DNA of 64,000 nt from Cytophagales bacterium (lineage in GTDB: Bacteria; Bacteroidota; Bacteroidia; Cytophagales; Cyclobacteriaceae), in assembly GCA_022360015.1 (NCBI GenBank), contig JAKSDQ010000028.1, positions 17,317 to 81,316 of the forward strand, written 5' to 3'. The notes beneath the pieces are model-generated. The model was given only the letters and a program-made list of their open reading frames with translations. It was not told the origin of the DNA and ran no database searches. The stretch's first letter is position 1, and each line of letters starts with the position of its first letter. Position numbers and translations under genes: made by a program. Shown here in pieces: positions 1 through 18,272 of the stretch.

Positions 1-3000
1 AGTATCGATGGGCTGTTTGAACGTTTTGATAACCGATCAAAATATCAAATAATGGTGAGCGGCTAGTATCACGTTCTAACGTTAGATCAGAAATCAGCGA
101 TTCAAAAGGATAATCTTGGTGCTCGTATGCATCAATAACGGACCGCCTTACTTTTGCCAATAGCCCAATGAATGTTTCGTTGGAGGCATCAAATATCGTT
201 CTGATCGCCAAAGTATTCAAATAACAACCAATTTGACCTTCTAAATCTTCATGTCGTCTATCAGCTATTGGGGTGCCTATGATAATATCATCCTGCCTGG
301 TGTATTTGAAGATAAGGATATTGATGGCAGTTAGCAATATCATAAACAAACTGGCTTCATTATCCCGACTAATCTCAATTAGATTTGATCTTATTTGCCT
401 ATTAATATAAAAACTCACTGAATTCCCCTTATATGATTGTTTTAAGGGGCGAGTAAAATCTAAGGGTAAGGTTAAAACCGGAATTTCGCCACTAAACTTA
501 TCTTTCCAGTATTTCTTATTAATTTCATTTTTTTCGCCTTCTAACTTATATTTTAGCCAGTGAATACAATCTTTGTACTGGATGTTCAATAGAGGTAAAG
601 GACTTTCTTTGCCATTGATAAAAGCGTTATATAATATGCTTAACTCCTTGATTAGAATATTAATTGACCAACCATCTGCAATCGTGTGATGAATTGCAAA
701 TAATAATATGCAAGTATGATCTTTCAATCTTAACAGTTTCACGCGAAGTAGTAAATCTGTGTTTAGGTCAAAAACCTGTTGGGCATTTTGGTTGGCAATA
801 GACCTGACAACATTGCAGGCATATTTATTTTGCTTTATATCAATGCATTCAATTTTGAAATTATCCTGATCAAATTTATTTAAGAATTGTTTCAGGGTTC
901 CATTAACAGTTCTAAACCGGGTACTTAAAATTTGGTGGCGTTTAATCAGTGCTCTGAATGATCTGCTAAGTATCTCAACATCTAAATGCCCTTCAAATTT
1001 GTAAGCCCACGATAAATTGTAAGCCTTTTGACTTTCTTCAAATTGACTGAGTACCCATAAACGCTTTTGTATATTAGAAGCCTCATAGAATTCCTGTTCT
1101 TCAATGGGCACTATGTGGTTTGAAGCTTCTTTATTCTGTCCTGACAGAAAAGAGCCAAGATCTCGTACACTAGGGTTTTCAAAAATATCCCTGATATGAA
1201 TCCGGACTTTCAGCTCTATCGCAATTTTACTGATCAATTGCATGGCTAATATTGAATTGCCGCCCATATCAAAAAAATTGGTTGTAACACCTAAATTTCG
1301 AGTTTCAAATACCTCATTCCATATAGATAATAACTTTTTCTCTTTGGGATTGATAGGTATTGAATTTTCATTATGAGTTCCCCCGTTTTGAAAAGGATCA
1401 GGGAGTGCGGAAAGATCTATCTTACCACCTGGATTTTTATTAAACCTTTCTACCTGAACAAAATAAGCAGGAATCATGTAGTGAGGCAGAACAGTAGCAA
1501 GTGATTTTCTAATATTCCGTATGTTTATAAGTTGGTTGCTTTCAATATAAGCAGCGAGAGATTTTTCATCATATCTTTCAACCACCCTTACTACCACATG
1601 TTGGGTCTTAAGATGTAAAATTATTTGTGCTTCGATCTCTCTAGGATCTATTCTATATCCGTTAATTTTTATATGAAAGTTCTTTCTGCCAATAAACTCA
1701 ATCTTTCCATCCTCGGTCCACTTGCCAATATCTCCGGTCCGGTAAAACCTACTTCCACGTGCCTCATTATTCTTTACAAATGAATTGTGAGTTTCCTCCA
1801 CTAAATTTATGTACCCATCGGCCAGACCTGACCCGGAAATACATATTTCACCAGGAAATCCAATTGGAACCGACTTTTGCTGTTCATCAAGAACATAAAT
1901 CTCATGATTTGGCAATGGATAACCTAAAATATTTGTCTCACTTGGTTGTTCGATTTTATTGTAGGTTACACATACCGTTGCCTCTGTGGGACCATAGGTA
2001 TTAAATAAATTAAGATTAAAAGTTAAGTTATCAAAATGTTCTGGTCTTAACGCTTCTCCTCCACTGATTAGCGTTCTTAAGGAGGTGAGTTTTTCCGGGT
2101 TTTTGTTTAATGAACTTATTATAAGTGGTGTTGTACTCAGTATGGTAGCCCTTTGTGATTGAATTACTTTTTGAAGCCCTTGAATATCTTTCCCTCCACC
2201 CTTTACTATTAAAAGTTGAGCACCCACAGTAAGCGCAGGAAAAATTTCTTCAATGCACAAGTCAAATGATAAGGATGATTGCTGCACTATACGATCATTT
2301 GAAGTCAATTCGAAATAGTTCTTGAAAGTCTGTATGTAATCGGTTAATGCATCATGTGAAATAATTACTCCTTTTGGCCAGCCGGTAGACCCCGATGTAT
2401 ATATTATGTATGCTGGCAAATTACCTTTAACATATATTCCGGGAGAAGTGGAATTGTAGGTATATATCTCTTCATTTGTCATATCACAGATCTCAATGAC
2501 TCTTATGGTTTGAGATAGTGATGTAATATTATCAGTCAGTAATAGGCCGGTATTGCTATCTTCAATCATGAAGTTAATTCGAATTTCAGGGAGGTCTGCA
2601 TCCAACATTACAATTGTTGCCCCGGTTTTTAAGAGAGCCAAAATTCCTATAATCATATTGTTAGATCGGCTAATTAAAATACCGCCCTTATCATCTCTCC
2701 TGATATTATATTTCTGAATTAAGTAGTTAGCTAACTGGCTTGATCTATAATGTAGTTCGTTATATGTGAGTGTAGAACTTTCATCAAACACAGCAACTTT
2801 GTCTGCAAATTCTAAAGCCATCTTCTCGAATTGCTCTATGAAGCTCGGAAGTGCAGAATAAGATACAATATTAGAATTATTGAATCGTGAAAGTAGCCAT
2901 TCCTCTTGTCCAGTCAACATAGAATATTCCGATATTAATTTGTTCGGGTCAACTAGAATAACTTCAAGTAAATACTGAAAGTGAGTCTTTAGTTTTTCAA

Positions 3001-6000
3001 TTTGTTTTACATCAAAAATGTCGGTATTAAAATTTATGTCTAATACCAGATTTTCATCTCTTTTTAAAAATTCAAACTGCAGGTCAATAATGCTGGTATC
3101 TGTTCTAACATCATAAGAAGAGACGGTGAGATCTTTACTTATCTCCCCAAAATTGAACGAATGATCAAAGTTCTGGAATAGTAAAAGAGTATTAAATGAT
3201 GACCCAACAGAATCATGAAATTTTGACTTTAAATCTTCTATTAACAAATCGAAGGGATAAAATTGATGCCCGTACGCAGCTACAATTTTATCTCTCACCT
3301 TCTTTAGGAAAGTAAGAAATTTGTCACCTGGGGAGACCGTCTGCCTAATCGGTAAGGTATTTACAAAATACCCCAATTGGTCCTCAACTAGCCGATTATC
3401 ACGTCCAGCTGTGTTGATTTCAATTATAATATCTGTCTGCCCGGAATACTTATGTAAGAGTACCTGAATTGCAGCTGTTAAAACTATAAATACCGTAATT
3501 TCATTGGCTTCACAAAATTCATCTATCAACTTTGTGAGTTCTGCCGTAAAAACCAAATCGACATGATCACCATTAAATGTCAGTCCTGATTTTTTTCTAT
3601 TGGAAATTGATAAATTCAAGGCCTCAAACTCATCGTTGAACTCTTGAAGCCAAAGTTCTTTATGCTTTTTTGACACTTCAGAAGAAACATTCTGAACTTG
3701 CCATACTGCGTAGTCCTTATATTGCAACCGTGGATTTTGATCAGGATAGTCTTCATTCAAATGGTAATGGCGATACAACCTTTGAATCCTTTTAATCATT
3801 ACCCCGGCAGACCACCCATCAAAAACAATATGATGGACGACAACCAAAAGTAAGTTTCTAAAATCACTGACCTGAAAAATATATACCTTTATTGGTAGAT
3901 TATTTTCTAAATCAAATGATTTTTTGACAATCAATTTTGCTCTCTCCCTAGCGATTGACTCTGGTTCGGGAGTATTTCTTAAGTCAGTCTTTTCAATTTG
4001 GAACGAAAAAGAAACATTTGGTAAAACGCTCTGTCTCACCGTCTCGCCAACTTGTCGAAATGTTGTTCTAAGGATCTCATATTCTTCAATTAGTTTGAAA
4101 AAGGACATTTCTAACGCCGACACATTCAAATCTCCATCTATAAAGCAGGCATTGGATAAGTTAAAAGCATACTGTTGGTCAACATAATTGTGTAATAGAA
4201 AAAATTTGTTTTGCGCATACGTTACCGGGTAATGCTCCTGTTCTTCAATGGAAGTAATATTAAATTGATTACTTTTGATTCCAGTGTGGATATGTTGAGC
4301 TAATTCTAAGATCGTAGGAAACCTGAAGAGATCGCTTAAAAATAAATCCGTTTTGTACTTTTCCTGAATGCGATTAAATAACCTAGTGGTTTTTATACTA
4401 TCAAGCCCTATGCTTAACAAGTTGTGGGCAACATTTATATCTTTAGACTCAGTAAATTGATTAAGCAGTTGGAGTATATGTTTTTCAATGTTTCTTAGAC
4501 CACTATTTTCGCCCTGAATCGAAGAAAATTGTAATTCTTTTAATATATCCTCATAATATGCATTTTTATAGTTCTCAAGTAATTTGAAATTTTGGATTTT
4601 ACCACTTGTTGTTTTAGGCACTTTTTTTATAGGTACTACATCTTTAACGTTAAGTGCCAAACTCTCATAAACTATGTCCTTGACCAATTTAACATATTTT
4701 GCAAATTTCTTTGTTGCACCCCTGTGTTGCAGAAATATTATGATTTCTTCTGATCCTGTCAATTCATTTTTATAACCTAATGCCACGACCTTCCCTATGG
4801 CAAATTCTCTTATGTTTGAACAGATCAGATTTTCTATGTCACTTGGATAATAATTTTGTCCATTTATTATTATTATATTCTTTTTCCTACCTACAACTAC
4901 AATTTTATTTTCGAATAAAAAACCCACATCGCCTGTTTTAAGCCAACCATCTGGTGAAAAAGTATCTTCTGTAAGTGATTGATTATTGTAGTATCCTTGA
5001 GTTACATTATATCCTTTTATTTGTATTTCACCTACAACTTGGGCCTCAAAAGGATTATTATCTTCATCACAAATTCTAACTTTACAATTTGATATAGGGC
5101 TTCCGACTTCCAATACTTTAGTGCTATGAGGACTTGTATCAGCAATAATTCTAATCTTATCACCTAAATTCAATCGAGATTTATCAAGGCTGTGGCATGT
5201 CAGATTATCGGAGGCTTTACGAATTGAAACAGCCACTGAAGCTTCTGCCAATCCGTAGCATGGGAAAAGACAGTCATTTCTTAATCGATAAATTCTAAAC
5301 TGTTCCAAAAATTTTTTAAGAATACTTTGAGAAATCAACTCAGCCCCTATATAGATCATTCGGACACAAGATAAATCCCATTGATATTTTTGGCCAGAAC
5401 TTAGAAAAGACATTAAATAGTTAAGCCCAAAATTGGGTGAATACAATAGAGTCGACCTGTGTCTTGTTGTCAAGTCAAACCAAAGAGAAGGACGCTTTAT
5501 GAACAGGCTTGTAGGTATTAGAATTTGATTGATCCCAGCCACCAGCCCGGTTAAGTGGACCCCAATTAAACCCATATCGTGAGTTAATGGCATCCAGCTT
5601 AACATGGAATCACGAGTATTAATATTGGAATGTGTTATTATATCATGGGTATTATAACTCAAATTCTGGTGTGTTAAGATTATCCCTTTTGGATGTCCTG
5701 TTGAGCCAGACGAATACTGAATATACGCAATATCGTTGGGAAGAATATTAATATTTCCTATCTCACCCTCATATTTTGAAAACTCATTTAGATCAACCCT
5801 TTTGGACTCTATTTCCAAGAAATTGCTGACTGAACGTTTAGCAAAGTAGTTCCTTACTTTGTCAAACAATGTGTCCTCACAAATTAGAAATGGGTTATTT
5901 AGTGTCAACCAAATTTTGTAAAACTTGGAAATATATTCATCCTCTCCCCTTGCCGATAAAGGCACCGGAATTATCCCGCCTAAGATGCATGCCCAAAAAG

Positions 6001-6214
6001 TTACGATAAAAGATTCTTGATCACTAAAGTATAAAACCAGTTCATCATTCTTTTTAATCCCAATTTTGTAAAAGTAAGAGCAGGTATCTCTAGCCTTTGT
6101 GTACAGGGAACAATAGCTAACAAAATCTTCTGACTTTGAATCCCTTAAAAACAATATTCCTTTATCTTTAATATGACTTACGGAATACAATGAGTCAATA
6201 AGGGTAGCCCCCAT
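1..6214 (-). CDS. Nonribosomal peptide synthetase, FAAL-T-C-A-T-C, 3' end beyond window
   Basis: The frame is open from ATG at 6214 to the left edge (about 2,071 codons, no stop), so the C-terminus is missing. The N-terminal adenylating domain has SSGSTGHPKG near residue 170 and YGLAEAS in place of the amino-acid-type YGPTEA, which fits a fatty acyl-AMP ligase loading domain. A carrier domain follows with GLDSIK (Ser606). A condensation domain has HHIVFDG at 794-800. An amino-acid adenylation domain has TSGSTGWPKG from 1273, then YGPTEA and YRTGD. A second carrier has GGNSI (Ser1654), and a second condensation domain has HHTIADG near 1842. Inferred role: activate a fatty acid, load it on the first carrier and condense it with amino acids. 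By eye against GrsA the A-domain pocket reads roughly D-L-E-S-I-G-T-V-C, which I cannot assign. It is the last visible gene of the operon, about 90 bp after the Roco gene. Confidence 0.93.
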   Translation of the reverse strand, partial: MGATLIDSLYSVSHIKDKGILFLRDSKSEDFVSYCSLYTKARDTCSYFYKIGIKKNDELVLYFSDQESFIVTFWACILGGIIPVPLSARGEDEYISKFYKIWLTLNNPFLICEDTLFDKVRNYFAKRSVSNFLEIESKRVDLNEFSKYEGEIGNINILPNDIAYIQYSSGSTGHPKGIILTHQNLSYNTHDIITHSNINTRDSMLSWMPLTHDMGLIGVHLTGLVAGINQILIPTSLFIKRPSLWFDLTTRHRSTLLYSPNFGLNYLMSFLSSGQKYQWDLSCVRMIYIGAELISQSILKKFLEQFRIYRLRNDCLFPCYGLAEASVAVSIRKASDNLTCHSLDKSRLNLGDKIRIIADTSPHSTKVLEVGSPISNCKVRICDEDNNPFEAQVVGEIQIKGYNVTQGYYNNQSLTEDTFSPDGWLKTGDVGFLFENKIVVVGRKKNIIIINGQNYYPSDIENLICSNIREFAIGKVVALGYKNELTGSEEIIIFLQHRGATKKFAKYVKLVKDIVYESLALNVKDVVPIKKVPKTTSGKIQNFKLLENYKNAYYEDILKELQFSSIQGENSGLRNIEKHILQLLNQFTESKDINVAHNLLSIGLDSIKTTRLFNRIQEKYKTDLFLSDLFRFPTILELAQHIHTGIKSNQFNITSIEEQEHYPVTYAQNKFFLLHNYVDQQYAFNLSNACFIDGDLNVSALEMSFFKLIEEYEILRTTFRQVGETVRQSVLPNVSFSFQIEKTDLRNTPEPESIARERAKLIVKKSFDLENNLPIKVYIFQVSDFRNLLLVVVHHIVFDGWSAGVMIKRIQRLYRHYHLNEDYPDQNPRLQYKDYAVWQVQNVSSEVSKKHKELWLQEFNDEFEALNLSISNRKKSGLTFNGDHVDLVFTAELTKLIDEFCEANEITVFIVLTAAIQVLLHKYSGQTDIIIEINTAGRDNRLVEDQLGYFVNTLPIRQTVSPGDKFLTFLKKVRDKIVAAYGHQFYPFDLLIEDLKSKFHDSVGSSFNTLLLFQNFDHSFNFGEISKDLTVSSYDVRTDTSIIDLQFEFLKRDENLVLDINFNTDIFDVKQIEKLKTHFQYLLEVILVDPNKLISEYSMLTGQEEWLLSRFNNSNIVSYSALPSFIEQFEKMALEFADKVAVFDESSTLTYNELHYRSSQLANYLIQKYNIRRDDKGGILISRSNNMIIGILALLKTGATIVMLDADLPEIRINFMIEDSNTGLLLTDNITSLSQTIRVIEICDMTNEEIYTYNSTSPGIYVKGNLPAYIIYTSGSTGWPKGVIISHDALTDYIQTFKNYFELTSNDRIVQQSSLSFDLCIEEIFPALTVGAQLLIVKGGGKDIQGLQKVIQSQRATILSTTPLIISSLNKNPEKLTSLRTLISGGEALRPEHFDNLTFNLNLFNTYGPTEATVCVTYNKIEQPSETNILGYPLPNHEIYVLDEQQKSVPIGFPGEICISGSGLADGYINLVEETHNSFVKNNEARGSRFYRTGDIGKWTEDGKIEFIGRKNFHIKINGYRIDPREIEAQIILHLKTQHVVVRVVERYDEKSLAAYIESNQLINIRNIRKSLATVLPHYMIPAYFVQVERFNKNPGGKIDLSALPDPFQNGGTHNENSIPINPKEKKLLSIWNEVFETRNLGVTTNFFDMGGNSILAMQLISKIAIELKVRIHIRDIFENPSVRDLGSFLSGQNKEASNHIVPIEEQEFYEASNIQKRLWVLSQFEESQKAYNLSWAYKFEGHLDVEILSRSFRALIKRHQILSTRFRTVNGTLKQFLNKFDQDNFKIECIDIKQNKYACNVVRSIANQNAQQVFDLNTDLLLRVKLLRLKDHTCILLFAIHHTIADGWSINILIKELSILYNAFINGKESPLPLLNIQYKDCIHWLKYKLEGEKNEINKKYWKDKFSGEIPVLTLPLDFTRPLKQSYKGNSVSFYINRQIRSNLIEISRDNEASLFMILLTAINILIFKYTRQDDIIIGTPIADRRHEDLEGQIGCYLNTLAIRTIFDASNETFIGLLAKVRRSVIDAYEHQDYPFESLISDLTLERDTSRSPLFDILIGYQNVQTAHRY

Positions 6215-6304
6215 GCCATTTCTTTTCGGCTTCAATGGATCAATCTTTAAATATTATATTTTGTTGGTCAGGTAGCTTTGGGGAAGCTAGATGATGAGTT
6301 TCAA

Positions 6305-8596
6305 CTATAAGACATTCATCAATGAAGCTAAGCTCACTTCAGCTCCACTTTTAGGGCAACTTATATGTTGATTCCCTACATAATAGAGTTTTTTTGTATA
6401 GTCATAGCTATATACTGCCGGTTCATTATCCTCCAAACAGTTTCTACAATTGCAGATTAATTGTGTTTCGATGGTAATATTGGAAAACAGAATACTACCT
6501 TGGATTTGGTAGAGAAGGTCCTGAATTCTTTCGACTACAAAATCTAGCATTGTTATGGAGTGTTTTCCGTTGACTCGAACCAAAATACTCTTATTTCGCC
6601 AGTCTTCAATTAAGTGTGCATAAGTATCCATGTGATGGAAAACGACCTCTGTATTCCAACATAAATTTTGAAATATTTTGTGGTGATTGACCACAGCTAA
6701 CTGCGAAATTATGTCTGCAGGTAGAACCGAATCAAAACAAACCTTTGCCGACAGGCTATTAGCAGATCTTTTATCGATGGAATAAGATGGTAATTCTTTT
6801 ATAGATAAAGAAGGAACTCTATAAATGGTTTTATTATCTTCTTTTACCTTGTAAAACAAGCGTAAGGCTTTCATAACCTCCATAAGTTTATTAAAATCAT
6901 CTTGATTATAATTTGCCCATATAGAGAGGATATCTTCGCTGGAAAATTCACCTCCATTGTTTTTGGTTTTGCTGAACCCTAAAATATCATACGCTGCCTT
7001 TCTAACCCAATTAGGTTTTAAAATAACCATTTTCTTTAATGCGAGAATCTTGGGAAAATATAGAACACTACCAATTGAACTTAAATAATTAATCCATACC
7101 ACGCCGTCCTTCTCTGACACCCCATAGGCGGCGCAAACATCCATGTATTCTGCAAAACTAATATAATCCTTATCAAGTGAGTCCAGATGCTCCTTCACCT
7201 TTATCCAACTGATGTTAAATGGTATCCCTAAAATACCTAAAACCTTTAGGTTTGCCTCTATCAAATCCTTTAGATACTCCAGTCCATCGCCAGTTTTACA
7301 ACTAACATCAACAAAGTCGATTACATTAGAGAATTTCCGCTGCATTTGATACTTTGACCATTCACCTACTTTAATATCGCTCTTGGTATGTACAAATATT
7401 ACGGGGCATTTTATGCCTACATTTGAGCTAAAAAGATTAATAAAATTGAGCCAATATTCGAACCCTACATATCTGTCTTCTTTGTGTATATGTTCGTCTT
7501 CTGGTTCTGTTACAAATAAATATAAAGAATTTCTACTACAAAAGAACTGTTGAATCGCTCTATACTCTCCTTGCCCTCCAAAGTCCCAAATATTTAGATC
7601 ACAATTTTCATCATTCCTAAATTTAAAACCCCACTTTCTAACGTCTAAGCCAGTTGTGCTTTTGTGATTGGTTAATTTATAGTTACGATTAATAAGGTTC
7701 TCTTTAAGGGTTGTTTTTCCTACCTGACCGTTACCGATAAGAATTAATTTGGCCTCAAAAAGTTTTCCGATTTTGGAAGGATCCTGGACACTTTTGAACC
7801 ACTGCTTTATGGCCTCAACACCTTGCTCACAAATTTCTAATGGTGGCACGGTTAGAGGGTTGCCCGTCGTATGTATAACCTTCAGATTGCTTAATTTTGT
7901 TATTTCAACCGGTAGGCATTGAATATCATTGTACTCCAGGTGCAATTCCCTTAGGTTGTTTAAATCACCTATCTGACGGGGTAATTCTTTTAATCCATTT
8001 CTATTAAGATATAATTCTTGTAGGTTTTTCAAACCGCCGATTTTTGTTGAGAGCGATTCCAGGCCATTGTTATTCAACCGTAATTCTACAAGTTGATCTA
8101 AATCGTAAATAGACTCAGGTAGCGAAATAATTTCGTTATCACTCATGTACAATTTCTTAAGATTTCGAAGATTGTTAATATGAGCAGAGATTACTCGAAG
8201 CCGATTGTTATTAAGATGAAGTCTTTGAAGGTTAAACAGTGAACAAATTACTGAGGGAAATTCATCAAATTCATTTTGCGCCAACACCAAAGTATCAAGC
8301 CTTTCAAGAAAAGCCATTTCTGGAGGAAGACTATGCAATTTGTTACTTTCTAAATACAATGCCACCAAATTCTTTAGCCGTTTGATTTCAGACGGAATAT
8401 TGGCAATGGTATTTCTTGAACCTGGAAAAAACTGTGTAAATAGCCCGCCTAGTTTTAGTATCCTTAGATTAGTCAGACCAAAAACCTCTTCCGGAAAGTA
8501 ATTTAAATTGGCATCTGCAATATCTAAATAATCTCTATTTTTTGATCTCGCTTCTTCAATCTTGTTTTTGGCCTTGCTTGAATTATTTCTTAGCAT
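6305..8596 (-). CDS. LRR-Roc-COR GTPase (bacterial Roco protein)
   Basis: 763 residues. About ten leucine-rich repeats span roughly residues 25-250, with the repeated pattern LxxLxxLxLxxNxLxxLPxxI. The Roc GTPase domain follows: P-loop GNGQVGKT at 288-295, G3 DFGGQ at 338-342, G4 HTKSD at 403-407 and a VSCKTGDGL segment. The G4 box has HTKSD where canonical GTPases have NKxD, as in many Roco proteins. The rest (about 460-650) fits a COR dimerisation domain, with a Cys-containing tail (CNCRNC) near the C-terminus. Roco proteins are GTPases that dimerise through COR and act in signalling; bacterial members have no settled role. It lies same-strand between small unknown genes and the NRPS, suggesting cotranscription. 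A role in regulation, self-protection or scaffolding is speculation. Confidence 0.92.
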   Translation of the reverse strand: MLRNNSSKAKNKIEEARSKNRDYLDIADANLNYFPEEVFGLTNLRILKLGGLFTQFFPGSRNTIANIPSEIKRLKNLVALYLESNKLHSLPPEMAFLERLDTLVLAQNEFDEFPSVICSLFNLQRLHLNNNRLRVISAHINNLRNLKKLYMSDNEIISLPESIYDLDQLVELRLNNNGLESLSTKIGGLKNLQELYLNRNGLKELPRQIGDLNNLRELHLEYNDIQCLPVEITKLSNLKVIHTTGNPLTVPPLEICEQGVEAIKQWFKSVQDPSKIGKLFEAKLILIGNGQVGKTTLKENLINRNYKLTNHKSTTGLDVRKWGFKFRNDENCDLNIWDFGGQGEYRAIQQFFCSRNSLYLFVTEPEDEHIHKEDRYVGFEYWLNFINLFSSNVGIKCPVIFVHTKSDIKVGEWSKYQMQRKFSNVIDFVDVSCKTGDGLEYLKDLIEANLKVLGILGIPFNISWIKVKEHLDSLDKDYISFAEYMDVCAAYGVSEKDGVVWINYLSSIGSVLYFPKILALKKMVILKPNWVRKAAYDILGFSKTKNNGGEFSSEDILSIWANYNQDDFNKLMEVMKALRLFYKVKEDNKTIYRVPSLSIKELPSYSIDKRSANSLSAKVCFDSVLPADIISQLAVVNHHKIFQNLCWNTEVVFHHMDTYAHLIEDWRNKSILVRVNGKHSITMLDFVVERIQDLLYQIQGSILFSNITIETQLICNCRNCLEDNEPAVYSYDYTKKLYYVGNQHISCPKSGAEVSLASLMNVL

Positions 8597-8647
8597 TTAC
8601 ATGTTAGTCATTTAGACTATTATAACTTCGTTACCGTCAAAAAGGAA

Positions 8648-9049
8648 TCAATGTATTTCATTTAACATTTCATTGCATTCCGGCTTGTATTTATCTTGCC
8701 AATGTAATTTTGCCTTTTCTCTCTGTTCTTCTCCTGAATCCTCTAAAACTTTATAAATTAACGATTTTATCTTTATAGATTGCATAAATTGCCGTAAACA
8801 ATCATGTGATTCCGAAGAATCAAAATGCTTCATTATGCTCTCTTTTAGATTGGACGTAACTCCAACAAATCTTGGATTTACAGGTTGCCCATTTACTCTT
8901 CCACAAATTGCATAAACGGCAGCTTGTTCCGGAAGTTCGTTTAAATTATCAAGCTCATCAAGATTGTTATCTTTTTTGTAAAGAACAACGTATTTAATCT
9001 CAACGTCATCCGATAACTGAATATAGTTATGATCTTTGTTCATGATCAA
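8648..9049 (-). CDS. Small protein with degenerate GIY-YIG-like core
   Basis: 133 residues. The central stretch AAVYAICGRVNG...RFVGVTSNL..SIMKHF has the layout of a GIY-YIG nuclease core: an aliphatic-x-Tyr strand, a short hairpin, an (R/Y)-(F/I)-(V/I)-G strand, and a helix ending in His-Phe. The usual catalytic Arg in the following helix appears as Lys or Glu, so activity is doubtful. A Glu/Trp-rich C-terminal helix follows (EEQREKAKLHWQDKY). It sits 52 bp upstream of the Roco gene on the same strand. The fold assignment is pattern recognition only; it could be an unrelated conserved small protein of this operon. Confidence 0.6.
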   Translation of the reverse strand: MIMNKDHNYIQLSDDVEIKYVVLYKKDNNLDELDNLNELPEQAAVYAICGRVNGQPVNPRFVGVTSNLKESIMKHFDSSESHDCLRQFMQSIKIKSLIYKVLEDSGEEQREKAKLHWQDKYKPECNEMLNEIH

Positions 9050-9176
9050 AATTATTTTATTTTTAAATTATATTTACTATTAGTTTTTTGTGTAAAACTT
9101 AATTCTAATTCTTTCAAAAAATTATAAATTGGTTATTCAAACGAAAATGTTTGATCAATTCTCTGATTGAGGAAAT

Positions 9177-9524
9177 TTATCCATTTCCCACGATCTCATT
9201 GTATTGTTCTTCCTCTATTGGCTCCAAATAACCCTCTCCTTCCAAGGAATTCAAATCAATATCTGCCACACATTTCACATTTTCATAATTCAACTTTACC
9301 CCACCCTCAAAATGTGCTGTCCCTGAACCTTTCTCAAAATCACAACCGGTAAAATCACAATTTTTACTATCCAGTTTTATTCCCAATTCAGTACCTGTTT
9401 CTTTAAATAAAATGTGCAGATAGCCTATTTCAATTCTCTCTTTTAAAGTAATTGCCTTTGTTTCAGGACGGTTGGCTTGAACCTGACGCTTTCCATCAGA
9501 AAGCCGTTTTACTAAGTCATTCAT
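9177..9524 (-). CDS. Hypothetical protein in NRPS operon
   Basis: 115 residues, not recognised. There is no signal peptide or membrane segment. The N-terminal half looks helical (KETKAITLKERIEIGYLHILF-type composition). The second half has short beta-like segments and a pair of close Cys residues in NCDFTGCDFEKG. It is acidic at the C-terminus. It lies between the carbamoyltransferase (57 bp upstream) and the GIY-YIG-like gene on the same strand. It does not show the conserved Trp pattern of MbtH proteins, so I do not call it an NRPS chaperone. Confidence 0.6.
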   Translation of the reverse strand: MNDLVKRLSDGKRQVQANRPETKAITLKERIEIGYLHILFKETGTELGIKLDSKNCDFTGCDFEKGSGTAHFEGGVKLNYENVKCVADIDLNSLEGEGYLEPIEEEQYNEIVGNG

Positions 9525-9580
9525 AATTTTAGTATTTATTGATTAGAGTAATAAAATCATATAATAAAGTTTTACAACCA

Positions 9581-11293
9581 TTAGAGGTAGTTTGTAAAGT
9601 CAGCTTTTTCATTTTTACTAAATAAAATATTATTGGCCCAGACATAGTTCAACCTGTCCCAGCCCGTAGCACTTTTAACATCTGGGAAAAAGCCGCTGCC
9701 GTTATAGTTTGCACTTGTGTTACATAATAATGGCACTCCACTTACTTTGACATATTCTCTTAGTAGAGCGTAAATTGTTTCATTATCTTTGTTATTAATT
9801 GTTTGCAACCTTGCGGTACCATCAAGATGACATATAGCAGGGACTCTGTCTTTCCACTCAGTTCGCACAAAATGCTCAAAAAGCATGTACGGATCAGAAC
9901 ACCCTGGGTCAAAAACCTTAGAAGCCTCTTCTTCTAAACACATCGGAGCTACAGGTCTATAAGACTCTCGGCCTTTAACTTCATTCAAAAGATCTTTCAT
10001 TTTTGGGCTCGTTGCCGGAGCTAATATTGATCGATTCCCTAACGCCCTTGGGCCCAGCTCGGCCCTACTGTTCAAAACAACCACGGGCTCTCCGGTTAAA
10101 TGCATATGTCTCGCTAGTTCTTCAACCGAAAAATTCTGTCGAGACCATCCTTCGGAGGGTGAATTGATTTTAACATCTGGGCCACTATATACATTCCAGG
10201 TAATGTTCGACTTATTAGTTTGAAATAAATATTCACAGCATGCAACGCCTATCGCACTTCCCGAATCATTCGGAAACGGTGGCACATACATTGATTTAAA
10301 AAGACCACTGCTTCGTATCTTACTATTCCATTTAATATTCAACCCTGAACCTCCCGAAAAACAAAGATTTCGTTCATACTGTGGATACTTGCTAATTTTT
10401 TGATCCAATGTGGATAATAACAGATCTTCCAGGTATTTGTGCATTGTTGCCAGAACATCTTCGTCCCGATATATTTCCTTGCGAACCAGTTTTCGAATGG
10501 TTTGAGAAAACAAATGCTCAAATTCATTATTTACAACTACATTTTTACGATGCACTTTTGAAAAAATTTCAAGTAGCTCTGGTTTAACCTTGCCTAAGGC
10601 AATGTATGCCATTATTTTTCCTGGAACTGTATAACCTCCAAAAAAACCTTCAATTCGTTTTTCGCTTTTATCAATTTTTAATTGTGCCTGAGACTTTTTA
10701 TAAGGCCCAAAGTACTGTGGAAAAATACCATATATGGTTCCAAGAAACATAAACAGGTGACCCAAATTTTTAATTTCATTAGTCTTTGCCTCAAAATAAT
10801 ATAGTCTAGGATATTGTCCTCCATCCCATGCGAGAATGTAGGAACTCTCTCCAGATTTTGCGAACGGACTGGAACAATAGGCACCCGCAACATGACCAGA
10901 GACATGCATGAAGCTTGAATATTCAAATTTCCTGTTATCGAGGGTTATGTTTTGTGAGTACAAAAATCTTTGGAGTATATTTTCGGAAAGACTTTTTTCA
11001 TTATAGGGTGCGACATTTAGCATTAAGTTCTTTGAGCCATGCTTTAAGGTAATGCTGGATGATCCACCCCAAAATTCCTCTACACCATGCCAACCATCAA
11101 TAGCCACGTAATCAATGTTTCCAATGCCGTAGCCATTAGACCTTATAATCTCAGGAATAATGGAAAGGTCACAAATCTCTTTATGCCTAACATTATTGTT
11201 GATCTTTTCTATCTCCGTACAAAATTTCAAAACGCCATCTTCAATTAGTGCTACTGCTCCATCGTGAGTAAGTTTAATTCCAAGAATTACCAT
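9581..11293 (-). CDS. Carbamoyltransferase, NodU/CmcH family
   Basis: 570 residues, the usual length of the family. The N-terminal Kae1-like domain starts with GIKLTHDGAVALIEDG and carries the metal/carbamoyl-phosphate motif HVSGHVAGAY and the ATP-site segment AWDGGQYP. A second nucleotide-binding element is SGGSGLNIKWN. The C-terminal YrdC-like domain has NSRAELGPRALGNRSILA, typical of NodU, TobZ and CmcH. These enzymes make carbamoyl-adenylate from carbamoyl phosphate and ATP and pass the carbamoyl group to a hydroxyl of an antibiotic or lipo-oligosaccharide. In this operon the acceptor could be the hydroxyl made by the CmlA-like enzyme or one on the acyl chain; that is inference. Confidence 0.93.
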   Translation of the reverse strand: MVILGIKLTHDGAVALIEDGVLKFCTEIEKINNNVRHKEICDLSIIPEIIRSNGYGIGNIDYVAIDGWHGVEEFWGGSSSITLKHGSKNLMLNVAPYNEKSLSENILQRFLYSQNITLDNRKFEYSSFMHVSGHVAGAYCSSPFAKSGESSYILAWDGGQYPRLYYFEAKTNEIKNLGHLFMFLGTIYGIFPQYFGPYKKSQAQLKIDKSEKRIEGFFGGYTVPGKIMAYIALGKVKPELLEIFSKVHRKNVVVNNEFEHLFSQTIRKLVRKEIYRDEDVLATMHKYLEDLLLSTLDQKISKYPQYERNLCFSGGSGLNIKWNSKIRSSGLFKSMYVPPFPNDSGSAIGVACCEYLFQTNKSNITWNVYSGPDVKINSPSEGWSRQNFSVEELARHMHLTGEPVVVLNSRAELGPRALGNRSILAPATSPKMKDLLNEVKGRESYRPVAPMCLEEEASKVFDPGCSDPYMLFEHFVRTEWKDRVPAICHLDGTARLQTINNKDNETIYALLREYVKVSGVPLLCNTSANYNGSGFFPDVKSATGWDRLNYVWANNILFSKNEKADFTNYL

Positions 11294-11376
11294 TTGTTAA
11301 TTTTTAGGGATGATTGAATTGGATGCGAAACGATCTTGATTTAAAATCCAATATATCAATGCGAACTCTTGTCCAC

Positions 11377-13029
11377 TTAAGTCGTCTCGGTTAGGCTAGT
11401 TTTAAAATCGCTGGCTATCTTTCCGTAATCGAATTTTAATATTCTATCCGCGGTATGAAAATAGTCATCATCATGGGTAGCAAGCAAAACCGTTTTGCCG
11501 CTTGATCGCAGTTTTGGCAATAATTCTTCATAGAAAAATTTTCGTGCTTCGGGGTCCTGTTCTGCAGCCCATTCATCCAAAATAATCATAGGTTTCTGAT
11601 CCAATAATGCATAGACCAATCCCAATCGTTTTTGTTGCCCTTTTGATAAGTTGTTATGTATCGTGTTCTTCGCAGGAATAAAATGTAAATCAAAAAGCCT
11701 AAGTTGCTTCAAATAGTTGACCAACCTATCGTTATTTGGTGATATGTCGTGTTCAGTATAATTTTCAAAGAAAAGGTAATTCGATGAAAACACCGCTGAC
11801 ATATTATCACGATAGTTCTCATGATTTTGGAGTGTAACTATCTCATCATTGAATTTAATGGTTCCTTCACTCTGTCGGTATAGACCTGTTAGTAAATTGA
11901 TGAAAGTACTTTTTCCACTTCCATTGCCCCCAACTATGAAAATCAGTTCGCCTGGGGTTATTGTCAAATTGATTGGCCCCAGAGAAAAACCATTCTCATC
12001 ATTTTGATTAGCATACTTATATGTCACGTTTTCGAAAGTAATAGCTTCAAAACTTCTTTTGAATTTTATTTTATTCTTATATGGTAATTCATCTGACAGA
12101 GTGTCGCTTACCTCCTTGTTAAATTTGATCAACCGTTGAATAGCTATTTTGATATTTGTATAAAATGGTATTATCGTCACCAGTACGGTAACTGGCCCGA
12201 TAAGATATAGCACAGTAATTAGAAAAGCAGAAGTTTCATTCAGTGAAAGTCCGAAAAATCTGGGTAAAAGGAATATCACTACACCGAATAACACATACCA
12301 ACTGTAGCTGCCAGTTAGTTCATTATTCATGTAACTGATATTTGTCGAAATGGTAATATCTTTTGATTTTTTTCTATTCACCTCCAGAAAATCACTATAA
12401 ATTCGGTTGTTACTTCCAGGGTTCATTTTTAGCTCTTTAAATCCAGAAAGCATATCTACCAGATAGCGGTGATAATCATCTATTAGATTTCTGTGAATGT
12501 TTAAATCTTTTTCGATTTTATTGTTTCTGACTAGGTAAACCGTCAATAAAACAGCTATAATTGTAACCACTATCCCAGCCCCGACAGGAGAAACTATGTA
12601 CATATAAAGTATGCAGCAAAGAACGACAATTATGGCATTGAAGGCATTCATGAAAACCTCGGGCAAATTCGCCATAGCCCGAATATCGCCAATAGCTGTA
12701 TAGACTTTTCCCTGCCCAAGCCGCTCAAAATTTTCATATGATGCCCGGTTTATCTTTCTCAAAACTGCCAGCTCAAACTCCATGTTTAATTCAGAAGTCA
12801 ATCTCACCATATATGACTGAAAAAAAATGTTAATTAAAAGGGATATAAAAACTATTCCTATAAATAATAGCCAATCATATTCAGGGAAAAACGCAATCGG
12901 GGATTGCGTCACAGCCATATCAATAAATCTTAAAAGTGCTACATTAAATGCACCTTTGAGAAGCCCCAAAAAAAGCATAAAAAGATAAAAAGCCTTTGAC
13001 CTGTTGAACAGTAGCTTCAAAAATTCCAT
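11377..13029 (-). CDS. Cyclic/lipopeptide export ABC transporter (SyrD/PvdE type)
   Basis: 550 residues, a half-transporter with membrane and ATPase domains fused. About six transmembrane segments lie within residues 10-290. The nucleotide-binding domain has Walker A GGNGSGKST (367-375), signature LSKGQ (461-465) and Walker B MIILDEWAAEQDP (481-493). The DEWAA.QDP form is characteristic of the SyrD/PvdE cyclic-peptide exporter subfamily, whose members move nonribosomal lipopeptides or siderophore precursors across the inner membrane. The location between the hydroxylase and carbamoyltransferase genes fits export of the NRPS product. Confidence 0.93.
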   Translation of the reverse strand: MEFLKLLFNRSKAFYLFMLFLGLLKGAFNVALLRFIDMAVTQSPIAFFPEYDWLLFIGIVFISLLINIFFQSYMVRLTSELNMEFELAVLRKINRASYENFERLGQGKVYTAIGDIRAMANLPEVFMNAFNAIIVVLCCILYMYIVSPVGAGIVVTIIAVLLTVYLVRNNKIEKDLNIHRNLIDDYHRYLVDMLSGFKELKMNPGSNNRIYSDFLEVNRKKSKDITISTNISYMNNELTGSYSWYVLFGVVIFLLPRFFGLSLNETSAFLITVLYLIGPVTVLVTIIPFYTNIKIAIQRLIKFNKEVSDTLSDELPYKNKIKFKRSFEAITFENVTYKYANQNDENGFSLGPINLTITPGELIFIVGGNGSGKSTFINLLTGLYRQSEGTIKFNDEIVTLQNHENYRDNMSAVFSSNYLFFENYTEHDISPNNDRLVNYLKQLRLFDLHFIPAKNTIHNNLSKGQQKRLGLVYALLDQKPMIILDEWAAEQDPEARKFFYEELLPKLRSSGKTVLLATHDDDYFHTADRILKFDYGKIASDFKTSLTETT

Positions 13030-13202
13030 AATTAGAAAATATGGTTTGGGATAAAAACTGATCTGAAAGAATTATAGTAACAACCAAATAAGGAGTACAA
13101 TATTAAGTTCAATCTTCAATAGTTAAACAATTGTACTTAAGCACCGGTCATCAATAAAAAATCTAACTTGCGTTATTAAGCCGGCCGACCCCAAGCAATT
13201 AA

Positions 13203-14816
13203 TCAGTTAACTTCAGCATTATAGTATTCGTATAGTAGCTCTTTCTCTCCAAACAGTCTTTCTGCGACTATACCTCTTTTCATGCATTCTTTAATTAATT
13301 TGTCAGACTGAATAATCGGGTTTGATTGATCGGTATATTTTATGCTACTGATAAATTCAACCCAAGGTTCTTGTCCCATAGCATATACATAGATTTCTTT
13401 GGGGTTAAAAATATTGACTAAATTTATCCCTCTCTCGAAATTCGATCCAGAAAATCTTCTGCTGTTGTCCTGATCTCTTCGAAGTTCTTTATTCAAAAGC
13501 GGCCCGTATAGCCAGCTTATGGGAGCTCCATCACACTCCATGCCTAGAAAAATAACATCAACATCACCAATTGTTTTATGGATATGCTGATATAGTATCG
13601 GCTCAACAATATTGGAGTCAGCAAAAAACATCATTGAAAACTCTTCAATTTGAAGATGGTAACAAAGTTTTGTCTGAATGTTCAGATCCCCATGCTCACC
13701 CGTAAATGGAATTCCCATGATTTTTACATTATCAAAGGTAATAGCTTCCATTTCATCCAACTCAATTATTTGATTGAATCCAATATTATTAAACATCAAT
13801 TTTAGATTGGGATCCTGAATCGATTTCCCACTTCTAGGCACCACTATATTTCTTATTTTATGCCTCAGGGGAAGTAATGTTTCCAATAGTATGTGATCTT
13901 GATGATTATGTGTTATTAAAACGTAATCTATCACGTCTGGAAGGTTAACGTCGGAAAAATGTTCAACGCTTGAAGTATATCCATAGTAACTAATTAGAGG
14001 GTCAATCAGAACACTTACATTCTTTGTTTCGATAAGTATGCATGCATGACCAAAATAACGCATGCGTATTTTATCGCCACTATAATTTTGATAGATCGGA
14101 GGGGCTTCCTTTGTAAAAAATGAATTAAAAAGAGCTTCATTTTTGTCATTTATTTCTAAAATATTCTTTAATTCAGTTAGTTCCTTAGCTGTTCTCTTCA
14201 TTTTACCAATTTCATCAATGACAGGATGATGGAAAGGGATGTTGAAATGAATAGCATTCTCGTCATTAAGTCTAGGTGTACTCAAACAAAATGGGCGCTC
14301 ATCATTATTTGTAATCCACATGGCAACGCTTTGTGAATGGGTATTGTAATAATCACTATCGTATAATAAAGCTTCAAAAAAGCGAAAGGACGCCTGATTG
14401 TTTAAGTCATAATGTAGTTCTATAAGCCCTTTTAAAGGTTGAGGTATCTCAGCGTACAATGGTTCAAGTGAGAACCCATTAGCCTTTTGTTCCAACATTT
14501 TATTAAGTTCTTTTATTGCATCAGACAGTTCTATCAATCTACTTTGGCTTTTTAATGTCTGCTCTCTCAGTTCTTTAATTTCTTTGGTTTTGGGGCTAGG
14601 AAAATCCATAAAGGGGCCTCCACGCATCTTAGGGTTTTTGACAGCAGCAATGTGGACTTGCGTTGCTTGAATATAAGAAGTCATTATTTTTAAATGACGT
14701 CCTGTTATATTCAGGGCAGCTGTGACTGGCGAGATTAAATGTGACCATGCATACCATTTATCAAATAACGGTTCCAGGACTACATTAGGCTTTAAATAAT
14801 ATTTACCAGATTCCAT
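13203..14816 (-). CDS. CmlA-like diiron beta-hydroxylase (MBL fold)
   Basis: 537 residues, close to chloramphenicol-pathway CmlA (about 532). The first 245 residues form a helical domain without metal motifs; the rest is a metallo-beta-lactamase fold with THNHQDH. By eye the CmlA iron ligands and their spacing are reproduced: H303, H305, D307, H308, E374 (in FTGEHGDL), H387 and D400 (in FFADSN). A Glu in place of a MBL hydrolase His is the hallmark that separates CmlA-type oxygenases from hydrolases. CmlA hydroxylates the beta-carbon of an amino acid tethered to an NRPS carrier. It starts 3 bp after the thioesterase stop, so the two are probably translationally coupled. An ordinary MBL hydrolase is the alternative. 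Confidence 0.82.
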   Translation of the reverse strand: MESGKYYLKPNVVLEPLFDKWYAWSHLISPVTAALNITGRHLKIMTSYIQATQVHIAAVKNPKMRGGPFMDFPSPKTKEIKELREQTLKSQSRLIELSDAIKELNKMLEQKANGFSLEPLYAEIPQPLKGLIELHYDLNNQASFRFFEALLYDSDYYNTHSQSVAMWITNNDERPFCLSTPRLNDENAIHFNIPFHHPVIDEIGKMKRTAKELTELKNILEINDKNEALFNSFFTKEAPPIYQNYSGDKIRMRYFGHACILIETKNVSVLIDPLISYYGYTSSVEHFSDVNLPDVIDYVLITHNHQDHILLETLLPLRHKIRNIVVPRSGKSIQDPNLKLMFNNIGFNQIIELDEMEAITFDNVKIMGIPFTGEHGDLNIQTKLCYHLQIEEFSMMFFADSNIVEPILYQHIHKTIGDVDVIFLGMECDGAPISWLYGPLLNKELRRDQDNSRRFSGSNFERGINLVNIFNPKEIYVYAMGQEPWVEFISSIKYTDQSNPIIQSDKLIKECMKRGIVAERLFGEKELLYEYYNAEVN

Positions 14817-14819
14817 ACA

Positions 14820-15512
14820 TTATTTTATTAATTTTGAGTGTATTATTTTCATTATTTCAGCTTCATAATTAAAAATGAAAAAATGATTACCCTTAAATGT
14901 ATCCAGTTCAACCTCTTGAGTAGTTTCATTTTTCCAACTTAATATTTCGTCCCTTGTTACTTTTTCCTTATCACCTATGAAAAGATTAATTGGGATATCA
15001 AAAGGTGGGTTTTGCCGGTAAGTATAGGTTTCGACGGATTGGAAATCAGCCCTCAGAATTGGCTCAAAAAAATCCAGTACCGCTTCATCTTCATATGTAC
15101 TTTCTGGCAGGCCACCTAATTCCATTATTTTTTTAAAAAAACTTTCTCGTGGTAAATTGTATCTGGGTGGATCAAATTTGAAAGCTGAAGGACCTATTGA
15201 ACCTGAAAAGAATAGGCGTTCTGGCTTTCTTAAACCTGTGAAAATGATTTTGATGGTTAAAAGATACCCTAAAAGCGAACCCATACTATGCCCATAGATA
15301 GCGTAAGGGTGCAATAAAGCATCCTTTATTTGGTCAAAAATATCATCTACTATATCATGAGCATTGAATAAAAGTCTTTCTTTAATACGCCTCCCTCTTC
15401 CGGGCAACTCAATCGGGATTACATTCACCCAGTTTGTACTAAATTTTTCAAATGTTTTAAAGGCATACGAACTCCCCCCAGCGAATGGTAAACAGAATAA
15501 ATTAATTCTCAT
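14820..15512 (-). CDS. Type II thioesterase (GrsT-like)
   Basis: 230 residues, alpha/beta hydrolase. Visible features are the oxyanion-region motif LPFAGGSSYAF (8-18), nucleophile elbow GHSMG (Ser76), an Asp in the NLFIGDKE strand and the catalytic His in FKGNHFF near the C-terminus. Stand-alone type II thioesterases remove misprimed or stalled acyl groups from NRPS carrier domains. It directly precedes the CmlA-like gene. Its own role as an editing enzyme is family knowledge; the rest of the operon supports it. Confidence 0.93.
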   Translation of the reverse strand: MRINLFCLPFAGGSSYAFKTFEKFSTNWVNVIPIELPGRGRRIKERLLFNAHDIVDDIFDQIKDALLHPYAIYGHSMGSLLGYLLTIKIIFTGLRKPERLFFSGSIGPSAFKFDPPRYNLPRESFFKKIMELGGLPESTYEDEAVLDFFEPILRADFQSVETYTYRQNPPFDIPINLFIGDKEKVTRDEILSWKNETTQEVELDTFKGNHFFIFNYEAEIMKIIHSKLIK

Positions 15513-15740
15513 CTTTTACTATTAGTAACACAAGAGCTAGAGACCTTTAATCCAAAACTTCTTTTAATAAACTCGCTGATAACCAACCACATATCTTTGC
15601 ATCACTGAAGAATGTAATCAGATATTAACCGAAAATCGACCTTAGCTGTTTGAGTCATTAATTTTATTCAGGCCAGTTATAAATGCAATATCCTGATCTC
15701 TCTTTAAAGCGGAATTTTAGCGACTTTTTCTCAATGCCCC

Positions 15741-15923
15741 TTATCCAATTGGGGTAAATAACCTATAAACAGCTTTATTCAACTTTTTTAAAAATCTCTT
15801 TTTGTGAGGTTTCGAGAAGCTGTTTTTCTTTAAGTATAAGTTTGTTAGCCAATTATTAGCAACCTTAATAAAAGAACTAAAATAGATCAAATCTAATTCA
15901 AGGCGATTTTGTTTCATTGGCAT
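15741..15923 (-). CDS. Possible small basic protein
   Basis: 60 codons overlapping the end of the upstream 103-residue gene by 26 bp on the same strand. The peptide is strongly basic in its second half, with many Lys and Phe. I do not recognise it. The overlap could mean translational coupling, but the ORF may be chance. Nothing else is visible in the 15,513-15,740 gap before the thioesterase. Confidence 0.25.
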   Translation of the reverse strand: MPMKQNRLELDLIYFSSFIKVANNWLTNLYLKKNSFSKPHKKRFLKKLNKAVYRLFTPIG

Positions 15924-16209
15924 TGCTTAATGCTTTCTCCTTTTCTTCCTTACTAAAGGTTACTCTAAACATTAGATCTGAAAGTTTTTTTTCCACATTA
16001 AGCCTAGAACTAAAATTCTCATACTTACCTAACTCTTTCCATATCATTTTCAGAGACGGTTCATTATCATCCTTAGGTGTCAAAAAGAAAATCGCCGCGC
16101 TACGGCGAGTCAATAGATTTTCATAGGGAAGCTCCCAGTCCTTTATTATTTCTTTTTTCTTCAAAGCTTCCAAGTGCTCTTTAACTTCAATAATCTCTGG
16201 TATGTGCAT
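15898..16209 (-). CDS. Hypothetical protein at head of NRPS operon
   Basis: 103 residues, unrecognised, predicted soluble and mostly helical. It is charged at both ends, with a central RRSAAIFFLTPKDD segment and the stretch MIWKELGKYENFSS. It is the first gene after the NusG-like antiterminator, following a 284-bp leader-like gap, and is same-strand with the biosynthetic genes. No transmembrane segment or signal peptide is seen. The position suggests a role in the pathway, but no function can be read from the sequence. Confidence 0.6.
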   Translation of the reverse strand: MHIPEIIEVKEHLEALKKKEIIKDWELPYENLLTRRSAAIFFLTPKDDNEPSLKMIWKELGKYENFSSRLNVEKKLSDLMFRVTFSKEEKEKALSNANETKSP

Positions 16210-16493
16210 AATTATTAAATTTTGTATTGAATGTTCTATTATAAATGTTATTTACTCTTAAATGAAAACTGATATGACACTTTTTATCAATGGGGCTACC
16301 ACAAGGCACGTTCGAGGTATCATGATATTTTTTTATTTAGCCTTGTTAATAGGAATATTATAACAACATTCCAGGTTTCAACCAGATTTTCTCATGGTGA
16401 TATCAGGAGTCACCTTTGATTCAATCTAGCTAACACAAGGAAATGCAATTAAGTGATTCAAACGTTGTATTTTAAATCCATTACCTAAGATAC

Positions 16494-16994
16494 TTATACC
16501 TGTACAACATTATATGGTGAAATATCCAACATTAGATTCTTTTCTAAGGTATTGATGTGAATTACGATCCGGTCTTTTCCCTTTTTTCTCACTAACTTTC
16601 CTTTTATACCTTTCATTGGACCTGAAGTTATAACTACCTCTGAACCCACTTTATAATTAAAGTTAGAAGTTTCAATATTTCCCAAAATTAGTTTTCTAAT
16701 AAGATCGATCTCTTGATCTTTAATTATTGAAGGATTTGAATTGGATCCAAGAAATTTAATGACGCCCGGTGTTTCAAAAATTTTAAACTTATCCATTAAA
16801 GGGATCCTAACGAAGAGATAATTTGGAAAAAGTGGCATGTCTATTTTTTTCTTTCTATCATGCCATTTTCTCACCACTTTGGTTAATGGCAGAAAGGTGT
16901 TAATGTTTTTTTTTTGTAGACGCCGGTCAACTTTTTTTTCATGTTTGGAATAGGTATAAACGGCTAGCCAAACAATAGATTGTTTAGTGCTCAT
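16494..16994 (-). CDS. NusG-like transcription antiterminator (UpxY/LoaP type)
   Basis: 166 residues. The N-terminal NGN domain reads WLAVYTYSKHEKKVDRRL...FLPLTKVVRKWHDR...MPLFPNYLFVRI, the pattern of Bacteroidota UpxY proteins. The C-terminal KOW domain is GSEVVITSGPMKGIKGKLVRK. Specialised NusG paralogues load on RNA polymerase near the start of one long operon and stop early termination; UpxY does this for capsule loci and LoaP for antibiotic loci. Here it is the first gene upstream of a same-strand operon of at least 16 kb that ends in an NRPS, so the natural inference is that it supports read-through of that operon. The 16,210-16,493 gap after it is where a recognition element would be expected. 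Confidence 0.9.
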   Translation of the reverse strand: MSTKQSIVWLAVYTYSKHEKKVDRRLQKKNINTFLPLTKVVRKWHDRKKKIDMPLFPNYLFVRIPLMDKFKIFETPGVIKFLGSNSNPSIIKDQEIDLIRKLILGNIETSNFNYKVGSEVVITSGPMKGIKGKLVRKKGKDRIVIHINTLEKNLMLDISPYNVVQV

Positions 16995-17250
16995 GTGTTT
17001 AAAAGGGTAGAGAATTGGTGGAAAGAGATCAGATATTTACGTTTCCCATAGCTTGCGCTACTCAAAGTAACATTACCTTGAAAAGAAAATTAAAGAAATT
17101 GGGACTCAACTTTGAGTGGAAAAATAAGCAATTATTAAGTTATAATAGCTCTTAACAATTATAACAAAAGTAAACAAAAAAAAAAATCAAGAACATAAAA
17201 ATTCCAATAATTTTTAATCGTTAAAACGTTTTAGATTACCGTATTATTTT

Positions 17251-18085: not shown

Positions 18086-18272
18086 GACTCACGCAACGCC
18101 TTAATTAAAGTAGATATTACCTTTCAACGTATGCCAGGCCTATGCTATGCCGTAACAGACATGGAAAATACATATAAGTGTCATTGAAATTATTAGGAAG
18201 TTGAAAATTATTAATAAGCTATAAAACGATAGTCCGTTACTTGTGTATTCTTAGTTAATCTTAATCCAAATA

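Follow-up and report, generated by a model that had tools for sequence, protein, structure and literature searches.

A FAAL-started NRPS cluster with a CmlA-type hydroxylase, carbamoyltransferases and recurrent small proteins in a Cytophagales bacterium

We identified a nonribosomal peptide synthetase (NRPS) cluster that is real, is without a known product, and is a variant of known lipopeptide assembly lines with an odd, conserved accessory set. Judged from its genes, this FAAL-started cluster, with a second contig (C231) likely included, would produce a cationic acyl depsipeptide-polyketide for export, bearing beta-hydroxyl and O-carbamoyl groups; we place good though incomplete confidence in this prediction. 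New beyond the initial annotation is the recurrence of small proteins of 103, 133 and 115 aa in such operons.

Layout of the ten-gene operon

Ten co-directional minus-strand genes run from position 16994 down to 1 of the window, by which we mean the whole 64,000-nucleotide stretch of DNA analyzed (bases 17317-81316 of contig C340; the genome comprises 7.31 Mb in 340 contigs). They lead from an UpxY antiterminator to a FAAL-started NRPS, with intergenic gaps of 3-385 b. The initial annotation had described such a one-strand run, and Pfam or NCBIfam profiles support every gene name in it; the small genes it mentions next to the Roco GTPase number two, of 115 and 133 aa, and UpxY is followed by a further one of 103 aa.

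16494..16994, minus strand: UpxY-family NusG-like antiterminator, first gene of the operon (NF033644, 140.5 bits, cut-off 100)
15898..16209, minus strand: sm103, conserved protein of 103 aa following UpxY, without a Pfam or NCBIfam match
14820..15512, minus strand: stand-alone (type II) thioesterase (PF00975, 120.0 bits), 3 b before CmlA
13203..14816, minus strand: CmlA-type diiron beta-hydroxylase (CmlA_N PF18456, 315.5 bits; HxHxDH intact)
11377..13029, minus strand: cyclic-peptide export ABC transporter, SyrD/PvdE type (TIGR01194, 329.5 bits, cut-off 286.2)
9581..11293, minus strand: Carb1, CmcH/NodU-type O-carbamoyltransferase (Carbam_trans_N/C, PF02543 and PF16861, 211.1/157.7 bits)
9177..9524, minus strand: CBFb115, 115 aa, with a modest match to the CBF-beta profile (PF02312, 30.1 bits, cut-off 25)
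8648..9049, minus strand: GIY133, 133 aa, predicted GIY-YIG fold, likely start ATG at 9043
6305..8596, minus strand: LRR-Roc-COR (Roco) GTPase (Roc PF08477, COR-A/COR-B PF16095 and PF25497, LRR)
1..6235, minus strand: NRPS1, N-terminal part, continuing to contig base 13826, left of the window
4541..6208, minus strand: FAAL loading domain of NRPS1, from PDB relatives
4271..4498, minus strand: T domain following FAAL, from the domain reading
2897..4261, minus strand: C domain 1, motif HHIVFDG, from the domain reading and C-domain alignment
1355..2908, minus strand: A domain 1, code DLESIGTVC, presumably Lys-like
1127..1357, minus strand: T domain 2, from the domain reading
1..1117, minus strand: C domain 2, cut by the window edge, from the domain reading

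The family scores of UpxY, thioesterase, CmlA, exporter, Carb1, Roco and the NRPS domains all lie above the curated Pfam or NCBIfam cut-offs, and the SyrD/PvdE assignment of the exporter holds on that basis. Since all large ORFs match a family strongly and comparable gene sets are present in other genomes, we regard the ten-gene cluster as real and not a product of chance. The UpxY gene falls outside the LoaP family (NF033641, 72.0 bits, under the cut-off of 125). No Rfam match at gathering scores was found in positions 1-20000 of the window, and the two long gaps in the operon header showed no clear folding advantage over shuffled sequences (z -1.46 and -0.11).

The proposed CmlA-like enzyme is confirmed by its profile score, its structural relatives and its motif. 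It contains both CmlA_N and a metallo-beta-lactamase domain with the HxHxDH metal motif (HNHQDH at residue 303), and it matches PDB 8a90 (461.9 bits) and CmlA 4jo0 (391.2 bits) over nearly its whole length. Its predicted role is that of a hydroxylase of a carrier-bound amino acid. CmlA is widespread, with 339 relatives in one scan; the best 80 of these 339 were taken further, and 6 of the 46 named genomes picked from the 80 loci carry a carbamoyltransferase at E<=1e-60.

The carbamoyltransferase stands as a CmcH/NodU-type enzyme, with both Carbam_trans domains and with carbamoyltransferase 7xb6, TobZ and GdmN among its PDB relatives. Carb1 and the second carbamoyltransferase, Carb2 (described below), both match CmcH/NodU/TobZ-type families and score under the model for NodU proper (NF041651, 607.9 bits for Carb1 and 627.6 for Carb2, cut-off 1000 bits). 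A phylum-wide draw searched with Carb1 matched its own genome alone (1/395 at E<=1e-120). Order-wide, a carbamoyltransferase at E<=1e-60 occurs in 4 of 390 genomes at 6 places (at most 3 candidates scored per genome), and NRPS domains lie in the examined stretch at all of these places except one (5/6; G076 is without). Among the 79 Chitinophaga-genus genomes, 8 carry one at E<=1e-120; eight of the 12 places involved have NRPS domains, those without being the second G870 copy, G894, G857 and G798. At E<=1e-60, with 3 of 4 candidates scored, the source genome shows Carb1 and Carb2. In Chitinophaga sp. GbtcB8, two further carbamoyltransferases adjoin NRPS genes on another contig (G895:C376; L167, L168).

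A Roco GTPase inside an NRPS operon possibly serves immunity or regulation. It had no match in the related NRPS loci searched for it, and its place (6305-8596) before FAAL is held by an S8 peptidase in GbtcB8 and, by eye, in the Chitinophagaceae SCN18 MAG (G834). To the right of the operon lie a phage-integrase SAM-like fragment (17251-17754, plus strand), a MacB/FtsX permease (18273-20624, plus strand) and a TraG conjugation ATPase (25163-27583, minus strand); the cluster may therefore adjoin a mobile element.

The assembly line left of the window and its probable part on contig C231

Within the window the NRPS has two stretches each of Condensation, AMP-binding and PP-binding, in the order FAAL-T-C-A-T-C that the initial annotation had given, the last C being cut by the window edge. 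By sequence, the first adenylating domain of NRPS1 is of FAAL type, not an amino-acid A domain, and T and C domains stand behind it. Its top PDB relatives are McyG, amino acid adenylation domain-containing proteins, Saframycin Mx1 synthetase B, Fatty Acyl-Adenylate Ligase and Polyketide synthase, followed by FadD23, FadD32, FadD28 and Acyl-CoA synthase entries, with a plain CoA ligase first appearing at rank 19. The motif HDMGLIG in this domain is one that we take to be the FAAL motif.

Extension to the left, which had been suggested as a check, yielded the 17,316 further bases of C340, where the same strand carries the rest of the assembly line. NRPS1 totals 3241 aa (FAAL-T-C-A-T-C-A-T-C) and NRPS2 1852 aa (half-C, A, T, C, FkbH); a 276-aa methyltransferase-like protein, a 591-aa T-C protein and a 620-aa asparagine-synthase-like protein (amidotransferase, AsnS) follow, and then A-T-C-A runs off the contig end. 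The FkbH domain (TIGR01686, 293.7 bits, cut-off 146.65) occupies the place of an A domain, in the order C-FkbH, methyltransferase gene, T-C. Such C-FkbH fusions are common: among at least 1404 relatives (E<=1e-3, scored among the 7989 candidates sharing most words), 112 of the best 120 cover at least 95% of the C-FkbH stretch. The HHxxxD motif is kept in 10 of 11 aligned C domains, and the eleventh, on a small contig, C202, reads NH. No releasing domain was seen among the cluster domains read.

Contig C231 (10,693 b) carries T-C-C-A-T (the Thr module), Carb2, and KS-T-T-C with the start of an A domain. In Chitinophaga sp. GbtcB8 (G895) and the SCN18 MAG, FAAL, Carb2, KS-T-T-C, AsnS, A4-T-C and CmlA lie within one stretch, and since FAAL, Carb2-KS-T-T-C, AsnS and CmlA are thus together in those genomes, C231 probably belongs to the C340 cluster. 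The membership is also supported by the 140 b that the ends of the two contigs share at 97% identity, by Carb1 and Carb2 being the two carbamoyltransferases seen in this genome at E<=1e-60 among the candidates scored, and by the Carb2 clade described next. As the contigs are unjoined in the assembly, we infer this membership. The same assembly line could also extend to another small contig, C202 (L010, C202:1-6552), which encodes T-C and A(Leu-like)-T-C-A(Pro-like).

Carb2-type enzymes from this genome, G261, GbtcB8, SCN18 and G131:C182 form one clade with support 100/99 among 45 rows. KS-T-T-C lies behind Carb2 in all five, with another carbamoyltransferase in between in GbtcB8. All five KS proteins have the catalytic Cys-His-His, and the GHSxG acyltransferase motif is absent from all five; a malonyl unit would therefore come in trans, or the KS merely passes the chain on.

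Substrate prediction for the A domains, also suggested at the outset, succeeded in part: Orn, Thr and a Lys-like residue were suggested by the specificity codes, and two domains, A3 and A4, remained without a match. We read the nine code positions off an alignment in which the C231 A domain served as ruler and compared them with a table of known codes. Because this domain was the ruler, and the position-278 column was chosen so that it reads Thr, its code DFWNIGMVH, presumably Thr (9/9 positions), is partly circular. A2 (DVGEIGSID) agrees at 9/9 positions with what we take to be the Orn code, A1 (DLESIGTVC) is assumed to be Lys-like, without an exact match in the table, and the C202 codes DAWFFGNVV and DVQSIAHVV are presumably Leu-like and Pro-like. 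The unmatched codes have close counterparts elsewhere, A3 (DAKHSGTVN) as DAKHSGTIN in G131:C208 and A4 (DVRHFALLA) as DARHFALMA in GbtcB8 and SCN18.

By the same codes, the A domain before Carb2 presumably reads Thr here, Ser in G131:C182 and Glu-like (DSKDLGVVD) in GbtcB8 and SCN18; none was seen before Carb2 in G261. A Ser/Thr hydroxyl therefore cannot be the Carb2 substrate in all four readable cases, and we rejected the notion that Carb2 always follows a Ser/Thr module, which holds in two of them. A Thr carbamate is still likely in the present cluster, going by its gene order, though it is no rule of the Carb2 clade. In GbtcB8 (by Pfam) and SCN18 (by eye), genes for a methylaspartate mutase and for an Asp/Glu racemase lie ahead of A4; both are absent between AsnS and A4 in our cluster. 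The mutase gene in GbtcB8 lies directly before the A4 module (L152, 12938-14875), which suggests methyl-Asp there.

Predicted product and competing readings

Gene order, domains, motifs, conservation and co-occurrence were observed directly, and from these we infer every chemical step, as well as release and bioactivity. In the proposed route, UpxY would keep RNA polymerase going through the long operon, and FAAL would adenylate a fatty acid for loading onto the first T domain. Successive modules would then add a Lys-like residue, Orn and one unassigned residue, after which the C-FkbH-T module would add a glyceryl unit from 1,3-bisphosphoglycerate, likely via an ester bond, and T-C and A4-T-C would continue the chain. 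Because the Thr module on C231 is followed by Carb2 and the AT-less KS-T-T-C, Thr is likely O-carbamoylated on its carrier by Carb2 and then ketide-extended. CmlA would hydroxylate one carrier-bound residue, and Carb1 would carbamoylate that hydroxyl or another one. The type II thioesterase may clear stalled carriers, and the TIGR01194 exporter would carry the product out. The N-acylated, exported NRPS product first proposed remains the best reading of the genes, and that proposal was incomplete: FkbH, the methyltransferase, the AsnS-like protein and, very probably, a second carbamoyltransferase with a KS also belong to the cluster, making a depsipeptide-polyketide hybrid the likelier product.

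This route depends on C231 and C340 forming one cluster. If they are two, C340 alone would direct an acyl-glyceryl peptide that is smaller, lacks a ketide and bears a single carbamoyl group, a reading to which the unjoined contigs, the presence of NRPS genes on several contigs of this genome, and a left end of C340 that runs into an unseen A domain lend some room. We consider it unlikely, given the single stretch that joins Carb2-KS-T-T-C to FAAL, AsnS and CmlA in GbtcB8 and SCN18, and the identity between the contig ends. A different fate of the hydroxyl would alter the product: the beta-hydroxy residue could be dehydrated, with the carbamoyl as leaving group or put elsewhere, giving few or no carbamates. 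Described CmcH-type enzymes yield stable carbamates, and we know of no NRPS that uses a carbamate as leaving group, both of which argue against this reading. The KS adjoining Carb2 could nonetheless act on an activated hydroxyl, and CrpA, a Pedobacter CmlA relative, is proposed to feed dehydrovaline formation (PMC12181424). On this evidence a dehydrated product with few or no carbamates appears quite improbable.

A decayed or silent relic without a product would fit the half C domain at the N-terminus of NRPS2, the mobile genes nearby and a Roco gene unseen in relatives. Yet the translated frames are free of stops across about 34 kb, the CmlA and KS motifs are intact, and HHxxxD persists in nearly all aligned C domains (10/11), and we therefore regard a relic as very unlikely. 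A monobactam reading, prompted by the Flexibacter antibiotics, was dropped, there being no supporting gene.

FAAL, FkbH, CmlA and carbamoylation each have precedent singly in described compounds. The initial annotation named no described product for the combination, and we found no described cluster with this gene set in the open-access PMC literature, a search without MIBiG and weak evidence of absence; the combination itself is not unique, as related clusters occur in Chitinophaga sp. GbtcB8, a Chitinophagaceae MAG and a Cytophagales MAG. Vioprolides and cystomanamides likewise use FkbH in place of an A domain to put glyceryl on T, and vioprolide combines this with FAAL and an ester-forming C domain (PMC8949500). 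In vioprolide, however, glycerate is joined straight to the fatty acid. Three amino-acid modules precede FkbH in our cluster, which also has CmlA and carbamoyltransferases.

Among Bacteroidota, chitinopeptins (PMC9248904) and cryopeptins (PMC12181424) are also NRPS lipopeptides with CmlA-like enzymes, and neither text contains the word carbamoyl or FAAL. Chitinopeptin clusters have an ABC transporter and an S8 peptidase, the latter as before FAAL in GbtcB8 and, by eye, SCN18 (PMC9248904). Celebesides, sponge depsipeptides with a polyketide part and 3-carbamoylthreonine (PMC12986191), show a possible outcome of the Thr-Carb2-KS order, a likeness by predicted chemistry alone and not by genes. 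The cyanobacterial heinamides and laxaphycins, compared via one review, share a candidate FAAL, hydroxylated residues and, in the B-type, O-carbamoyl-homoserine (PMC8471579). Their candidate FAAL lies outside the cluster, their hydroxylases are cupin-like and no carbamoyltransferase is assignable there, whereas here FAAL, CmlA and Carb1 share one operon (PMC8471579).

Small proteins shared by related operons

The three small proteins sm103, GIY133 and CBFb115 recur in such NRPS operons, and they are likely accessory factors of this operon type that may act as dedicated helpers of the assembly line. Three further NRPS headers carry sm103 relatives at 52-59% identity, and of 79 Chitinophaga-genus genomes 4 have the protein, each time beside GIY133. 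CBFb115 lies near GIY133 again in G868, G877:C1, G899 and G893. At each of the 11 GIY133 places found, NRPS genes lie in the stretch read, and 8 of these places have FAAL within 5 kb. The converse, that the small proteins accompany every FAAL cluster, was rejected: only 5 of at least 83 FAAL places lie within 5 kb of a GIY133 gene. These places occur in at least 42 of 79 Chitinophaga-genus genomes (E<=1e-70), a lower bound with at most 17 candidates scored per genome.

Two of these loci have features of their own. The sm103-GIY133-CBFb115-FAAL operon of G877:C1 (L188) also carries a PLP enzyme and ornithine-cyclodeaminase-like and ornithine-carbamoyltransferase-like genes, perhaps a diaminopropionate/ureido route. 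In G868:C1:6345001-6365000 (L195), a C-A-T-C at about 115-4689 lies on the opposite strand within a one-strand NRPS run, an inversion or an assembly fault.

The GIY-YIG fold of GIY133 comes from a predicted structure model; against PF01541 the protein scores 17.0 bits, under the cut-off of 22.6, and 5 of 32 members match at E 0.01. Searched against the PDB, the GIY133 profile had no match up to E 10, and neither the CBFb115 nor the sm103 sequence had one under E 0.1. The structure model of sm103 is weak (pLDDT 67.4, two alignment rows). The catalytic sites, Arg 71 or 70 and Glu 114, were placed by eye from the UvrC sequence and are presumed positions. At these positions Arg occurs in 0 (column 71) or 1 (column 70) of 32 rows, with R in 11 at column 69, and Glu occurs in 1 of 32 at column 114, with E in 19 and 17 of 32 at columns 116 and 118. 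GIY133 apparently lacks the usual catalytic Arg, as far as the presumed site goes. An MbtH-like motif, in the form we presume for it, appears in 0 of 197 sequences, a weak test. A GIY-YIG protein in a bacterial NRPS cluster was not found in the open-access PMC literature, where the papers listed were three on fungi; this is weak evidence of absence.

We tentatively suggest, while regarding it as doubtful, that FAAL-started NRPS lines in Bacteroidota may have taken on a GIY-YIG nuclease fold, its catalytic Arg seemingly lost, as a dedicated partner. Together with sm103 and the CBF-beta-like protein, this partner might form an accessory set for lipo-initiation or carrier handling, in a role comparable to that of MbtH-like proteins.

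In summary, carbamoyltransferases occur inside FAAL-NRPS clusters, with one clade beside an AT-less KS. For the heinamides, the review gives no assignable carbamoyltransferase (PMC8471579); the location of such enzymes inside the clusters here opens the question to gene deletion and mass spectrometry. The small-protein set, the less expected part of the cluster, is already usable as a marker by which clusters of this family can be located. A nuclease fold lying beside NRPS genes at every place found would be an added protein class in NRPS biology, provided that it proves to have a physical role.
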